Origin: Nostoc sp. NMS4
Lineage (GTDB): Bacteria; Cyanobacteriota; Cyanobacteriia; Cyanobacteriales; Nostocaceae
Assembly: GCF_017115095.1 (NCBI RefSeq)
Contig: NZ_JABXKI010000080.1
Coordinates: 1-39,248, forward strand
Length of the DNA stretch: 39,248 nucleotides
Reading direction: 5' to 3'
In this document: positions 19,362-22,043 of the stretch, piece after piece
Layout: the number at the start of each line of letters is the position of its first letter
Numbering within the stretch: the stretch's first letter is position 1
Notes under the pieces: model-generated
The model's input: only the letters and a program-made list of their open reading frames with translations
Databases searched by the model: none
What the model was told of the DNA's origin: nothing
Program-made: the position numbers and the translations under genes

Positions 19362-19454
19362 CGGGGTGTAGCTCAACTGGCTAGAGCGTTCCGTTGTCTG
19401 CGGAAATGTTGCGGGTACCCTGCGGGAAGCAAGCTACAAATCCCGTCACCCTGG
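19362..19454 (+). tRNA. tRNA-Asp(GUC), T loop interrupted by a small repeat
   Basis: The acceptor is CGGGGTG/CACCCTG with G73. The D arm (GCTC/GAGC) and anticodon arm TTCCG-TTGTCTG-CGGAA are normal. The T stem GCGGG/CCCGT encloses 26 bases instead of 7 because a ~22-base dispersed repeat (19415-19437) sits in the loop, destroying the TTC needed for folding. It is probably a pseudogene. Confidence 0.85.
19415..19437 (-). mobile_element. ~23-bp small dispersed repeat inside tRNA-Asp
   Basis: The minus strand reads GTAGCTTGCTTCCCGCAGGG followed by TAC. It matches 21 of 23 positions with the repeat at 20157-20179 in tRNA-Arg, but in the opposite orientation. Small elements of this size that insert into other sequences are known from Nostoc genomes. 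Confidence 0.75.
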
Positions 19455-19458
19455 TTGT

Positions 19459-19532
19459 AGCCCTGTAGGCGAATAGTTTAAGCCGTCAGTTTCTCAAGCT
19501 GAAGATTGCGAGTGCGAATCTCGTCAGGACTC
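19459..19532 (+). tRNA. tRNA-Glu(CUC), divergent
   Basis: A 74-base cloverleaf with anticodon loop TTCTCAA. The acceptor AGCCCTG/CAGGACT has a C3:A70 mismatch, the D loop lacks the GG pair, and the T loop reads TGCGAAT with G in place of the invariant U55. The discriminator is C73, and CCA is encoded (19533-19535). Activity is doubtful. Confidence 0.75.
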
Positions 19533-19538
19533 CCAAAT

Positions 19539-19611
19539 GGTCAGGTAGCCAAGTTGGTAAGGCGTTGGTCTGCAAAACCGATTAGCGCGGGTTCAAATCC
19601 CGCCCTGACCT
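19539..19611 (+). tRNA. tRNA-Cys(GCA)
   Basis: A well-formed 73-base cloverleaf. The acceptor GGTCAGG/CCTGACC is perfect, the anticodon loop is CTGCAAA, and the T arm is GCGGG-TTCAAAT-CCCGC. U73, the cysteine discriminator, is present. No CCA follows. Confidence 0.95.
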
Positions 19612-19615
19612 CTGC

Positions 19616-19686
19616 CGCAGTGTAGCTTAACGTAAAGCCCCTGGCTCATAACCGGGTGGATGCGGGTTCAAGTCTCGCCACTGCTA
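19616..19686 (+). tRNA. tRNA-Met(CAU), short D loop and 1:72 mismatch
   Basis: A 71-base tRNA with anticodon loop CTCATAA. The acceptor CGCAGTG/CACTGCT leaves C1:U72 unpaired, an initiator-like feature, but the D stem GCTT/AAGC has the elongator-type C11:G24 pair. The D loop has only six bases and no GG. CCA is encoded (19687-19689). A CAU tRNA could also be an Ile2 substrate for TilS. Confidence 0.85.
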
Positions 19687-19692
19687 CCAAAT

Positions 19693-19764
19693 GCAGGGAT
19701 GGTGTAACGGTAACATCTCGTGACTCCAAATCCGATGTTCTAAGTTCAAATCCTAGTCCCTGTG
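19693..19764 (+). tRNA. tRNA-Trp(CCA), one base missing in anticodon stem
   Basis: 72 bases. The anticodon loop CTCCAAA follows stem CGTGA, but the 3' side reads TC-CG rather than TCACG, leaving a bulged U29. The T stem CTAAG/CCTAG has one mismatch. G73 agrees with tryptophan. It is probably weakened or inactive. Confidence 0.75.
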
Positions 19765-19854
19765 TCAGACAATTTTGAATTTTAGATTGCCAATTTTAGA
19801 TTAAATTTTTTAATCCAAAATCTAAAATTTAAAATCTAAAATTCGCTCAATTAT
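19765..19854. repeat. AAAATCTAAAAT low-complexity spacer
   Basis: The spacer between tRNA-Trp and tRNA-Glu(UUC) is built from AAAATCTAAAAT-like heptads and their inverse, able to fold back on itself. Similar A/T heptads separate other array segments (21033-21065, 21451-21500, 21563-21590, 22050-22076). Confidence 0.7.
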
Positions 19855-19926
19855 GCCCTCGTGGACGAATGGTTAAGTCAGTGTTCTTTCAAAGCACAGA
19901 TGCGAGTTCAATTCTCGTCGAGGGAA
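19855..19926 (+). tRNA. tRNA-Glu(UUC), array copy
   Basis: 72 bases; acceptor GCCCTCG/CGAGGGA with G1:A72 unpaired; anticodon loop CTTTCAA; T arm GCGAG-TTCAATT-CTCGT; A73. It duplicates the anticodon of the housekeeping tRNA-Glu at 12388 but differs from it throughout. Confidence 0.92.
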
Positions 19927-19933
19927 TGATTAT

Positions 19934-20016
19934 GGGTCGGTGGCCGAGTCTGGTTGAAGGCGACAGTCTGTAAAACTGTTCTTTTTTGCGCGCAGGTTCA
20001 AATCCTGCTCGACCCA
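19934..20016 (+). tRNA. tRNA-Tyr(GUA)
   Basis: An 83-base class-II tRNA. Acceptor GGGTCGG/TCGACCC, anticodon arm ACAGT-CTGTAAA-ACTGT, 12-base variable region, T arm GCAGG-TTCAAAT-CCTGC, A73. All parts are intact. Confidence 0.95.
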
Positions 20017-20020
20017 TTAT

Positions 20021-20110
20021 GGAGAGGTGGCTGAGTGGCTAAAAGCGTCCTCCTGCTAAGAGGAAACGGGTAGCTAATATCCGTCGCAGGTTCAAATCCT
20101 GTTCTCTCCG
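20021..20110 (+). tRNA. tRNA-Ser(GCU), array copy
   Basis: A 90-base class-II tRNA with acceptor GGAGAGG/TCTCTCC, anticodon arm TCCTC-CTGCTAA-GAGGA, a 21-base variable arm and G73. The housekeeping Ser(GCU) lies at 26136; both share the acceptor and D arm, but the anticodon stem and variable arm differ. Confidence 0.95.
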
Positions 20111-20114
20111 TTTT

Positions 20115-20208
20115 GAGAGTGTGGTGTAACTGGATAACATCTCAGTCTACGAAACTGTAGCTTGCTTCCCGAAGGGTAGACGTGAGGGTTCAAATCCCTC
20201 CACTCTCG
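20115..20208 (+). tRNA. tRNA-Arg(ACG) with repeat-expanded variable loop
   Basis: 94 bases. The acceptor GAGAGTG/CACTCTC is perfect and the anticodon loop CTACGAA gives ACG, which TadA would convert to inosine. The variable region is 25 bases because a dispersed repeat occupies 20157-20179. The D and T arms are intact, so this tRNA may still fold, unlike the interrupted tRNA-Asp. Confidence 0.88.
20157..20179 (+). mobile_element. ~23-bp small dispersed repeat inside tRNA-Arg
   Basis: GTAGCTTGCTTCCCGAAGGG then TAG fills the variable loop. It is 21/23 identical to the inverse of the copy in tRNA-Asp (19415-19437). The core CCC-GAA-GGG can form a tiny hairpin that would project as a pseudo variable arm. 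Confidence 0.75.
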
Positions 20209-20228
20209 TTACATGTCTCTTCTCCTAT

Positions 20229-20303
20229 CCCCCGGTAGCTCAGTTGGTAGTTAGCGCCTGTCTGAAGAACAGGAGGTCGTCGGTTCGATTCCGACCTGGG
20301 GGG
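20229..20303 (+). tRNA. tRNA-Phe(GAA)
   Basis: 75 bases; acceptor CCCCCGG/CTGGGGG; anticodon arm CCTGT-CTGAAGA-ACAGG; T arm GTCGG-TTCGATT-CCGAC. The D arm GCTC/TAGC has one mismatch from extra bases in the loop, and the discriminator is G73 where A is usual for Phe. Confidence 0.92.
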
Positions 20304-21208: not shown

Positions 21209-21217
21209 CCAAAATAT

Positions 21218-21286
21218 CTGGGTGTGGCGCAGATGGGAGCGCGGGAGTTTCGGAGACTCCAGGTCGTTCAATCCCTGCCACTCAGA
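21218..21286 (+). tRNA. tRNA-Pro(CGG) with 4-base T-stem deletion
   Basis: 69 bases. The acceptor CTGGGTG/CACTCAG, D arm GCGC/GCGC and anticodon arm GGAGT-TTCGGAG-ACTCC are good. Between the variable loop and TTCAATC only G remains where GCAGG is needed to pair with CCTGC, so four bases appear deleted. It is a probable pseudogene. Confidence 0.82.
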
Positions 21287-21290
21287 CTTT

Positions 21291-21363
21291 GCCCTTGTAG
21301 CCCAACGGAAGAGGCGCTTCGCCTAGAACGAAGAGGTTGCTGGTTCAAATCCAGTCAGGGGTA
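21291..21363 (+). tRNA. tRNA-Leu(UAG), class-I variable loop
   Basis: 73 bases; acceptor GCCCTTG/CAGGGGT with G1:U72; anticodon arm CTTCG-CCTAGAA-CGAAG; variable loop AGGTT; T arm GCTGG-TTCAAAT-CCAGT; A73. No CCA follows. It completes a five-member leucine set. Confidence 0.92.
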
Positions 21364-21373
21364 TTGGTGAATA

Positions 21374-21447
21374 TGCGGGGATAGAGCAACGGTGGCTCGT
21401 CAGGCTTATAACCTGAACATCGGCAGGTTCGACTCCTGCCCCCGTCA
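21374..21447 (+). tRNA. tRNA-Ile(UAU) on an initiator-like scaffold
   Basis: 74 bases. The body resembles tRNA-fMet: acceptor TGCGGGG/CCCCGTC leaves U1:C72 unpaired, and the D stem GAGC/GCTC has the A11:U24 pair of initiators. The anticodon loop is CTTATAA, giving UAU instead of CAU. The anticodon stem TCAGG/CCTGA has two rather than three G:C pairs next to the loop. A73; CCA encoded (21448-21450). Confidence 0.85.
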
Positions 21448-21513
21448 CCAAATTTTAGATTTTAGATTTTAAATTTTGGATTGTTGATTCAAAACTGAAA
21501 ATCTAAAAAGGTG

Positions 21514-21555
21514 TGAGAGCAAGCTTGTTTTATTTGTCCAACAAATCCCGTCTCA
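21514..21555. other. unassigned foldable segment between array tRNAs
   Basis: TGAGA (21514-21518) and TCTCA (21551-21555) enclose the palindrome CAAGCTTG and the hairpin TTTGT-CCA-ACAAA. The ending AAATCCCGTCTCA resembles the 3' half of a T arm plus acceptor. It may be an eroded 27th tRNA, but no anticodon arm can be drawn. Confidence 0.35.
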
Positions 21556-21592
21556 AATGTCTTGAATTTTGAATTTTGAATTGTTAATTGAT

Positions 21593-21666
21593 GGGGTCAT
21601 AGCTCAAATGGCTAGAGCGTCTGCCTTGCAAGCAGGAGGTTATGGGTTCAATTCCCATTGATTCCA
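21593..21666 (+). tRNA. tRNA-Ala(UGC)
   Basis: 74 bases; acceptor GGGGTCA/TGATTCC includes the G3:U70 pair that AlaRS recognises; anticodon arm TCTGC-CTTGCAA-GCAGG; T arm ATGGG-TTCAATT-CCCAT; A73. No CCA follows. Confidence 0.96.
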
Positions 21667-21671
21667 CTGAT

Positions 21672-21746
21672 GGTGTCTGAAGCCAAAGTGGTCGAGGCGC
21701 TGGTTTGTGGAACCAGTCATAGCGGGTTCAAGTCCCGTCAGGCACC
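21672..21746 (+). tRNA. tRNA-His(GUG)
   Basis: 75 bases including the histidine-specific extra G-1 opposite C73. Acceptor GTGTCTG/CAGGCAC; anticodon arm CTGGT-TTGTGGA-ACCAG; T arm GCGGG-TTCAAGT-CCCGT. Confidence 0.95.
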
Positions 21747-21753
21747 CTTGAAT

Positions 21754-21836
21754 GGAAGATGCTGCTGAATGGTCGGCAACCAAGCTTGAACCTTGGAGTA
21801 TGGGCAACTGTAGGGGTTCGATTCCTCCATCTTCCT
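21754..21836 (+). tRNA. tRNA-Ser(UGA)
   Basis: An 83-base class-II tRNA; acceptor GGAAGAT/ATCTTCC perfect; anticodon arm CCAAG-CTTGAAC-CTTGG; 15-base variable arm; T arm AGGGG-TTCGATT-CCTCC with one mismatch. Position 8 is G rather than U, and the discriminator is U73 where G is usual for serine. Confidence 0.88.
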
Positions 21837-21841
21837 CTTTT

Positions 21842-21913
21842 CCACCTGAAGCCGAAAAGTGAGGCGCTGTGCTGATAACACAGAAATAGGAGGGGCAGTA
21901 CCTCCCTGGTGGA
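21842..21913 (+). tRNA. tRNA-Ile(GAU) without a TTC T loop
   Basis: 72 bases; acceptor CCACCTG/CTGGTGG with one U:U mismatch; anticodon arm CTGTG-CTGATAA-CACAG. The T stem GGAGG/CCTCC closes loop GGCAGTA rather than TTCRANY, and the D loop lacks GG, so the elbow contact is absent. It is probably degenerate. Confidence 0.72.
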
Positions 21914-21972
21914 TTTATATCTAGAGTTGGTGTTACAAATCGCACTTGCTCATTTCTTTTTCAAATTAACCA

Positions 21973-22043
21973 GGGTGGTTGGCATATCGGCTGTGCAGCG
22001 GGCTTTTAACTCGCAGAAATAGGTTCGACCCCTATACCACCCA
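21973..22043 (+). tRNA. tRNA-Lys(UUU), last member of the array
   Basis: 71 bases; acceptor GGGTGGT/ACCACCC perfect; anticodon arm GCGGG-CTTTTAA-CTCGC; four-base variable loop; T arm ATAGG-TTCGACC-CCTAT; A73. Heptad repeats follow immediately. Confidence 0.93.

Follow-up and report, generated by a model that had tools for sequence, protein, structure and literature searches.

The 39,248-nucleotide stretch of Nostoc sp. NMS4 analyzed here (the window) is an entire contig (G000:C42) of a draft assembly that comprises 440 contigs. Between positions 19362 and 22043 it carries an array of 26 tRNA-like genes. We consider it probable that this array is a silent chromosomal operon of spare tRNAs, inducible by stress and controlled by the repressor TrcR, and that its Ile(GAU) gene encodes a real tRNA with an A18-G55 elbow. 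TrcR would bind at the tandem TGTAGTAT boxes that cover the -10 region and keep the array from being transcribed; when translation is impaired, TrcR would drop and the array would be transcribed into spare tRNAs, as others have described for Anabaena and as we infer here. The gene at 21842-21913, the only isoleucine(GAU) gene of the array, would act in translation as a real tRNA. The operon-level account follows the published Anabaena work, to which the present analysis adds the linkage of array and trcR on the chromosome, the wide occurrence of the promoter boxes, and the elbow variant.

The 26 genes serve 17 amino acids (D, E, C, M, W, Y, S, R, F, N, Q, L, P, I, A, H, and K) and all lie on the + strand, many of them spaced by a few bases; the window array has no gene for Gly, Thr, or Val. 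A first-pass annotation made from the sequence alone had described the array in these terms, and ARAGORN, Rfam, and the sequence bear it out. ARAGORN called 22 genes within 19362-22043, plus two outliers at 12388 and 26135. Rfam at the gathering threshold also gave 22 in the span, gaining the Trp gene at 19693 and lacking Ser(UGA). The union of the two is 23 genes, and Rfam with permissive filters adds 21842-21913 for a total of 24; thus, covariance models together with ARAGORN recover most of the 26. A tRNA fold is present in about 24 of the 26, whereas Asp(GUC) at 19362 and Pro(CGG) at 21217 are recognizable yet damaged.

The isoleucine gene and its elbow

With permissive filters, an Rfam search of 21842-21913 returned a tRNA at 37.3 bits, compared to a gathering threshold of 29. 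ARAGORN overlooked this element in the array loci that were read, and default Rfam overlooked the window copy; array gene counts from these programs may therefore be low. We selected 69 copies (68 distinct) for a covariation analysis with 500 shuffles. The de novo fold has an acceptor stem of 7 base pairs, a D stem of 3, an anticodon stem of 5, and a T stem of 5. Of 1,359 cells, 98.6% are paired, and 14 of the 20 pairs are doubly changed. The doubly changed cells number 115, versus 21 in the shuffles, none of which reached as high a value. When the partners are slid by one base, pairing falls to 37-46%. An earlier acceptor register (positions 1-7 with 68-74, and U as discriminator) was discarded, because the de novo register pairs better (98.6 versus 96.7%) and yields A73.

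A18, G55, and C56 occur in all 69 copies, G19 in 66, and A73 in 67; the T-loop reads GGCAGUA in 67 copies, and the other two have A54. The D-loop A is numbered 18 by its likeness to the fMet-like genes. The element has a cloverleaf, a GAU anticodon, and A73, and its anticodon arm and C4-G69 are retained. Of the canonical elbow (G18-U55, G19-C56, and U54-A58), G19 and C56 alone are kept, and the gene is therefore classed as an elbow variant rather than a canonical tRNA-Ile(GAU). The contact G18-U55 appears to be replaced by A18-G55, with G19-C56 kept: the bases co-vary, and the geometry we infer. A Y18-G55 pairing was considered and dropped, as the comparison of orthologous families points to A18-G55. 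Kinship to the skipping-rope RNA (RF02924) was rejected at 15.7 bits (gathering threshold 36.7, E-value 0.15), and two divergent copies of the element gave no Rfam match at E<=1.

A similar exchange was found in other array tRNAs. We counted the distinct ARAGORN tRNAs in the stretches whose T-loops have C56, a few housekeeping genes included. T55 with GG in the D-loop was found in 1,637, G55 without GG in 89, T55 without GG in 25, and G55 with GG in 10, leaving 41 unscored and 3 others. The odds ratio for the association is 583, but because the rows are related its p-value should not be read at face value. Among the 10 exceptions with G55 and GG are several fMet-like genes whose GG lies in the D-stem. 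In the Glu(CUC), Met, fMet-like, Tyr, Gln(CUG), and Leu(GAG) families, most T55 copies have GG and most G55 copies have AG. The rates of G55 are 44/527, 29/810, and 6/235 for same-genus stretches, stretches from other families, and arrays outside the order, respectively. All 34 housekeeping tRNAs scored in the window's own genome have T55 with GG, and none has A18/G55; in three phage stretches, T55 is present in 21/21 and GG in 20.

G18-U55 is among the most conserved tRNA contacts (reviewed in PMC7912444 and PMC4810234). We give about even weight to the proposal that the arrays evolved a second working elbow, a co-varying A18-G55 that arose repeatedly in several families and became fixed order-wide in Ile. 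If so, A18-G55 tRNAs would be independent of pseudouridine 55 and perhaps invisible to enzymes or toxins that recognize the usual elbow; this could explain their retention for translational emergencies. A natural and apparently repeated elbow replacement, in a class of tRNAs that others have shown to be induced by translation inhibitors in a model strain, would offer a way to ask what the elbow does and what is dispensable in an emergency.

In nhmmer searches with each window gene, the Ile element, the 25th gene, was found in 74 loci, the most of any member (detection varies by gene). Its within-genus mean identity, 0.973, is the highest of the 26 (Asn 0.972, Trp 0.968). It also ranks first when plasmid copies are compared with those of the genus, at 0.888, with 0.860 for the next member (detectable plasmid copies only). 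A covariance model at E<=1e-4 found the element in 116/217 genomes of the family. In a sample of the order, it was present in 111/388 genomes and 48/149 genera, a few of them weakly; in a sample of the phylum, whose share from outside the order is unstated, it was present in 26/386, all from the same order. Of the 114 family genomes whose array match reaches E<=1e-45, 110 have the element, compared to 6/103 of the others. A pattern scan of named genomes matched at least 116 stretches; the 80 among the matches listed were all cyanobacterial by title, and their titles include Nostoc, Fischerella, Oscillatoria, Microcoleus, Moorena, and Coleofasciculus. A phage source was discarded, as phages and viral contigs gave no match.

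In the array loci read, ARAGORN called an Ile(GAU) gene in L150 and L189 only. The element is thus almost always present in arrays that otherwise rarely hold Ile(GAU). Outside the order, the Kovacikia Ile gene as query gave 12 loci (3-kb stretches), 10 of them with an ARAGORN Ile(GAU) gene. All 10 genes have a UUC T-loop and 9 have GG in the D-loop, they occupy another position in the array, and the core of the Ile element was not found in any of the 12 loci. For three divergent copies of the element, the best match among the 33 tRNAs of Kovacikia is its canonical array Ile (0.68-0.74; next 0.56-0.59). The retained anticodon arm and A73, the near-constant presence in arrays, and the kinship to canonical array Ile suggest a role in translation for the Ile gene.

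Promoter, trcR, and the chromosomal locus

To the left of the array are a deacetylase gene, an alr0857-family gene, and an HNH gene, with a 111-amino-acid gene on the opposite strand and 2.4 kb between it and the array promoter.

16217..16552, - strand: trcR, RHH transcriptional repressor, 111 amino acids; upstream motif and neighbors as for all0854 in Anabaena
16585..16602, - strand: TrcR binding motif ATACTACACTTGTATTAC before trcR, 0 mismatches; motif as given in PMC10272220
16957..17496, + strand: HNH endonuclease, alr0856-like; Pfam HNH_5/HNH
17513..17902, + strand: alr0857 family protein; NCBIfam NF045647, E-value 4.9e-50
18000..18857, - strand: polysaccharide deacetylase at the array border; Pfam PF01522; often adjoins the array in relatives
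18970..18998, + strand: array promoter, TTGACA at 18970-18975, 17-base spacer, TAGTAT at 18993-18998; from the sequence
18981..19008, + strand: tandem TrcR-type boxes TGTAGTAT at 18981-18988 and 18991-18998, and TGTAGTG at 19002-19008; from the sequence

The site upstream of the 111-amino-acid gene matches the TrcR autoregulatory motif at 18 of 18 positions and is the sole perfect copy in the genome. The protein itself had no match in Pfam or NCBIfam; we call the gene trcR because of this exact motif and because its HNH and alr0857 neighbors are those of Anabaena all0854. In the Anabaena numbering, all0854 (trcR) is followed by asr0855, alr0856 (HNH), and alr0857, the latter three listed in the TrcR regulon table of PMC10272220. 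Relatives of TrcR are present in 212/217 family genomes. Three genomes (G107, G111, and G132) have 3-4 TrcR matches each, with 8, 0, and 1 ARAGORN tRNAs beside their trcR, respectively.

The array promoter has TGTAGTAT-like boxes 10-11 bases apart that overlap the -10 region. In Anabaena, TrcR footprints on the TGTAGTAT box of the trn promoter, according to PMC10272220. We scanned the 900 bases before arrays of at least 5 tRNAs using a pattern written after the window had been seen; 14 loci with too little upstream sequence were skipped, the plasmid set includes Kovacikia, and 3 of the 23 further loci are from family members. The pattern was present in 56/58 chromosomal, 14/14 plasmid, and 21/23 further loci (91/95 arrays). 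Exact copies of TGTAGTAT number 103, 23, and 45 in these three sets, compared to 1.4, 0.2, and 0.4 expected from single-base shuffles, and at least one exact copy is found in 56, 13, and 22 loci, respectively. The window has two marks of the TrcR regulon, the TGTAGTAT-type site at the -10 region and a trcR gene with its autoregulatory motif. By analogy to Anabaena, TrcR would repress the window array through the tandem TGTAGTAT boxes.

We read the surroundings of trcR in 49 genomes of the same genus plus the window, and in 38 genomes chosen from other genera; the stretches L058, L079, and L085 stop at contig ends or early, and L039 begins at a contig start. At least 3 ARAGORN tRNAs lie beside trcR in 35/50 same-genus stretches, the window included. 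The shared order is trcR, HNH, alr0857, deacetylase, array, and then nagZ, crtP, crtB, and tRNA-Ser where the stretch reaches. Of the remaining stretches, 6/50 have 0 or 1 tRNA at this place, and one of the six ends short of it. In the other genera, 16/38 stretches from nine genera likewise have 3 or more array tRNAs by trcR, 15 of the 16 with the deacetylase. The order deacetylase-array-nagZ-crtP-crtB-tRNA-Ser also recurs in relatives whose contigs are 6.5-8.2 Mb long, which makes a misjoin unlikely. All 217 family genomes have a match to the array DNA at E<=0.001, unsurprisingly for tRNAs, and 114 have one at E<=1e-45. The locus is an old chromosomal site rather than a recent insertion.

Sixty loci, each with a cluster of 3 or more tRNAs, have a common gene order, with losses and some rearrangements: D E C M W E Y S R F N Q Q L L P L L P L fMet T G V R A A H S (I) K. 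Thr(UGU), Val(UAC), and Arg(UCU) are present in 41/60, 41/60, and 47/60 loci, respectively; the window lacks all three as well as Gly, and 142 bases separate its fMet-like gene from its Ala gene. The lack of Gly, Thr, and Val in the window is thus most simply a lineage deletion. The locus has shrunk in several genomes, with one ARAGORN tRNA in L076, L079, and L093, and none in L047 and L062. In L047 the promoter boxes are kept and are directly followed by the Ile element and then by a damaged Lys gene.

Array members and competing explanations

The members of the array follow, all on the + strand. Each was called by ARAGORN and Rfam unless stated otherwise.

19362..19454: tRNA-Asp(GUC), damaged, dispersed repeat in T-loop; from the sequence, missed by ARAGORN and Rfam gathering
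19459..19535: tRNA-Glu(CUC), A18/G55 elbow
19539..19612: tRNA-Cys(GCA)
19616..19689: tRNA-Met(CAU)
19693..19764: tRNA-Trp(CCA), extra U at 19721 in 5' strand of anticodon stem; Rfam, same extra base in relatives
19854..19927: tRNA-Glu(UUC)
19933..20017: tRNA-Tyr(GUA)
20020..20111: tRNA-Ser(GCU)
20114..20209: tRNA-Arg(ACG), dispersed repeat in variable loop
20229..20304: tRNA-Phe(GAA)
20310..20384: tRNA-Asn(GUU)
20555..20627: tRNA-Gln(CUG)
20631..20706: tRNA-Gln(UUG)
20713..20789: tRNA-Leu(CAA), short variable loop
20796..20873: tRNA-Leu(UAA), short variable loop
20875..20947: tRNA-Pro(UGG)
20951..21025: tRNA-Leu(CAG), short variable loop
21134..21211: tRNA-Leu(GAG), short variable loop
21217..21288: tRNA-Pro(CGG), damaged T-arm; from the sequence, missed by ARAGORN and Rfam gathering
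21290..21364: tRNA-Leu(UAG), short variable loop
21374..21450: presumably initiator-like tRNA, anticodon UAU (CAU here in many relatives)
21593..21667: tRNA-Ala(UGC)
21673..21747: tRNA-His(GUG)
21754..21837: tRNA-Ser(UGA); ARAGORN
21842..21913: elbow-variant tRNA-Ile(GAU); Rfam permissive (37.3 bits), covariation, distribution
21973..22043: tRNA-Lys(UUU)

These genes are extra to a dispersed housekeeping set, and housekeeping genes for many isoacceptors were found elsewhere in the genome. Housekeeping genes for Ile, Ala(UGC), Leu(UAA), and Leu(UAG) were not recovered among the 150 of 482 candidates scored, perhaps because of this partial scoring or because an rRNA operon is missing from the draft; a single pattern search for a canonical trnI in the genome gave no match. 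The first-pass statement that most array tRNAs are unlike the housekeeping ones was checked for Leu length and elbow bases only. Array tRNA-Leu is short: 288/300 ARAGORN calls are 73-80 nucleotides, versus 81, 85, and 85 for three housekeeping Leu tRNAs. Several phage Leu tRNAs of 74-77 nucleotides resemble the short array Leu.

With its extra U, the Trp gene has a bulge of one base in its anticodon stem, a pattern that occurs in 46 stretches among L038-L133 and in none among L137-L220; the stem is normal in L097 and L115. The repeat core GGGAAGCAAGCTAC has 19 copies in the genome, including window positions 19424 (the T-loop of Asp, the first array gene) and 20157 (the variable loop of Arg). 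Some shrunken relatives have a similar repeat near an apparent deletion joint by Ser(UGA). A literature search on dispersed repeats in tRNA gave none, and no T-arm was found in Pro(CGG), the 19th gene, when it was looked for.

Several observations weigh against a working spare-tRNA operon with an A18-G55 tRNA-Ile. The array includes a damaged Asp, a damaged Pro(CGG), and an odd Trp, and the Ile element has also lost U54, A58, and U8, so that it could be impaired in translation. The relatedness of the sequences inflates the shuffle and Fisher statistics; among G55 copies, at least 8/36 Met and 1/4 fMet-like genes do not have AG; and the window Ile copy matches the Kovacikia Ile at 0.59, in third place, with a Leu closer at 0.62. 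Four array-bearing family genomes (G079, G109, G178, and G193) do not have the Ile element. Since trcR is near-universal in the family irrespective of the array, the linkage may be incidental; in 7/50 same-genus stretches a distance of 28-78 kb separates the array from trcR on a single contig, and in 2/50 the two lie on separate contigs, with the array still by nagZ-crtP.

We judge it unlikely, if worth keeping in view, that the Ile element is instead a tRNA-like RNA outside translation, serving as a decoy for anticodon nucleases, as an amino-acid donor, or as a processing or stability element. Its loss of G18 and U55 in addition to the three bases above would fit such a role, as would the L047 remnant, where it directly follows the promoter boxes; but it keeps its anticodon arm, A73, and C4-G69, array loci rarely offer another Ile(GAU) gene, and arrays outside the order carry a canonical tRNA-Ile. 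Two kinds of copies also speak for such a role: in L202 and L219 the element stands in stretches with no ARAGORN tRNA, and second copies with the anticodon UAC (Val) occur in four genomes of one family (L186 7591, L195 5647, L196 5624, and L212 1281).

That the whole array is decaying, non-functional baggage seems improbable to us. The damaged and odd members, the T, G, V, and R genes missing from the window, and the deletion remnants in L047, L062, L076, L079, and L093 are what decay would leave; however, the promoter pattern is retained in nearly all arrays scanned, many members are highly identical among relatives, and the Ile member shows compensatory changes. We give very little credence to a recent integration of plasmid or phage DNA. 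There are plasmid arrays whose genes and promoter boxes are similar and which have a homologous HNH gene upstream, and the short Leu tRNAs resemble some from phages, but the array occupies the same chromosomal place in the 35/50 same-genus stretches and in nine other genera, and all 14 plasmid arrays have a Trp without the extra base and lower identity. Recent plasmid integration was rejected on synteny, and the first-pass suggestion of an integrated remnant finds no support. A silent chromosomal operon of spare tRNAs with an A18-G55 tRNA-Ile remains our preferred account.

Comparison with known systems

Among tRNAs with altered elbows, tRNA-Pyl (PMC7609411) likewise departs from the G18/G19 and U54-U55-C56 set; the Ile element differs in keeping G19 and C56, in its sense anticodon, and in its cyanobacterial host. 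Canonical array tRNA-Ile(GAU) genes from outside the order (L150, L371-L379, and L381) share the GAU anticodon and the cloverleaf, and the gene in L150 matches three divergent copies of the element at 0.68-0.74. In contrast to the element, most have D-loop GG and a UUC T-loop, and they occupy another place in the array.

For the plasmid comparison, cyanobacterial plasmids other than Anabaena delta were used. The plasmid arrays of Nostoc, Calothrix, and Tolypothrix (L137-L149) have a similar gene order to that of the window array and share with it the promoter boxes, the upstream HNH gene, and the Ile element; however, their Trp has no extra base, many have Lys(CUU), and ParA or integrase genes are often neighbors. 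The window HNH is 67-75% identical to an HNH coding stretch that precedes the 14 plasmid arrays. Judged by these sequences, the plasmid arrays are a separate, related type. In L138, L142, and L146 a CUA (amber) tRNA follows Trp, and several others have Lys(CUU) there. In Myxococcus phage Mx1 (L136 1584-2129) an HNH gene 37% identical to that of the window lies by a short tRNA-Leu.

The window array is of a known kind, a cyanobacterial L-array like the trn operon of Anabaena PCC 7120. According to PMC10272220, the latter has 26 tRNA genes in one operon, a -10 element TAGTAT overlapped by TGTAGTAT, and control by TrcR, which falls when translation is impaired, whereupon the array is transcribed; deletion of the array carries a fitness cost under translation inhibitors. 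The Anabaena array is on the delta plasmid, whereas the window array is chromosomal and beside trcR. The first-pass idea of spare translation capacity under stress fits this published array, and the same kind of promoter box and the adjoining trcR suggest that it may hold for the window as well. Given the linkage to trcR and the widespread boxes, control of tRNA arrays by TrcR can be tested well beyond Anabaena.

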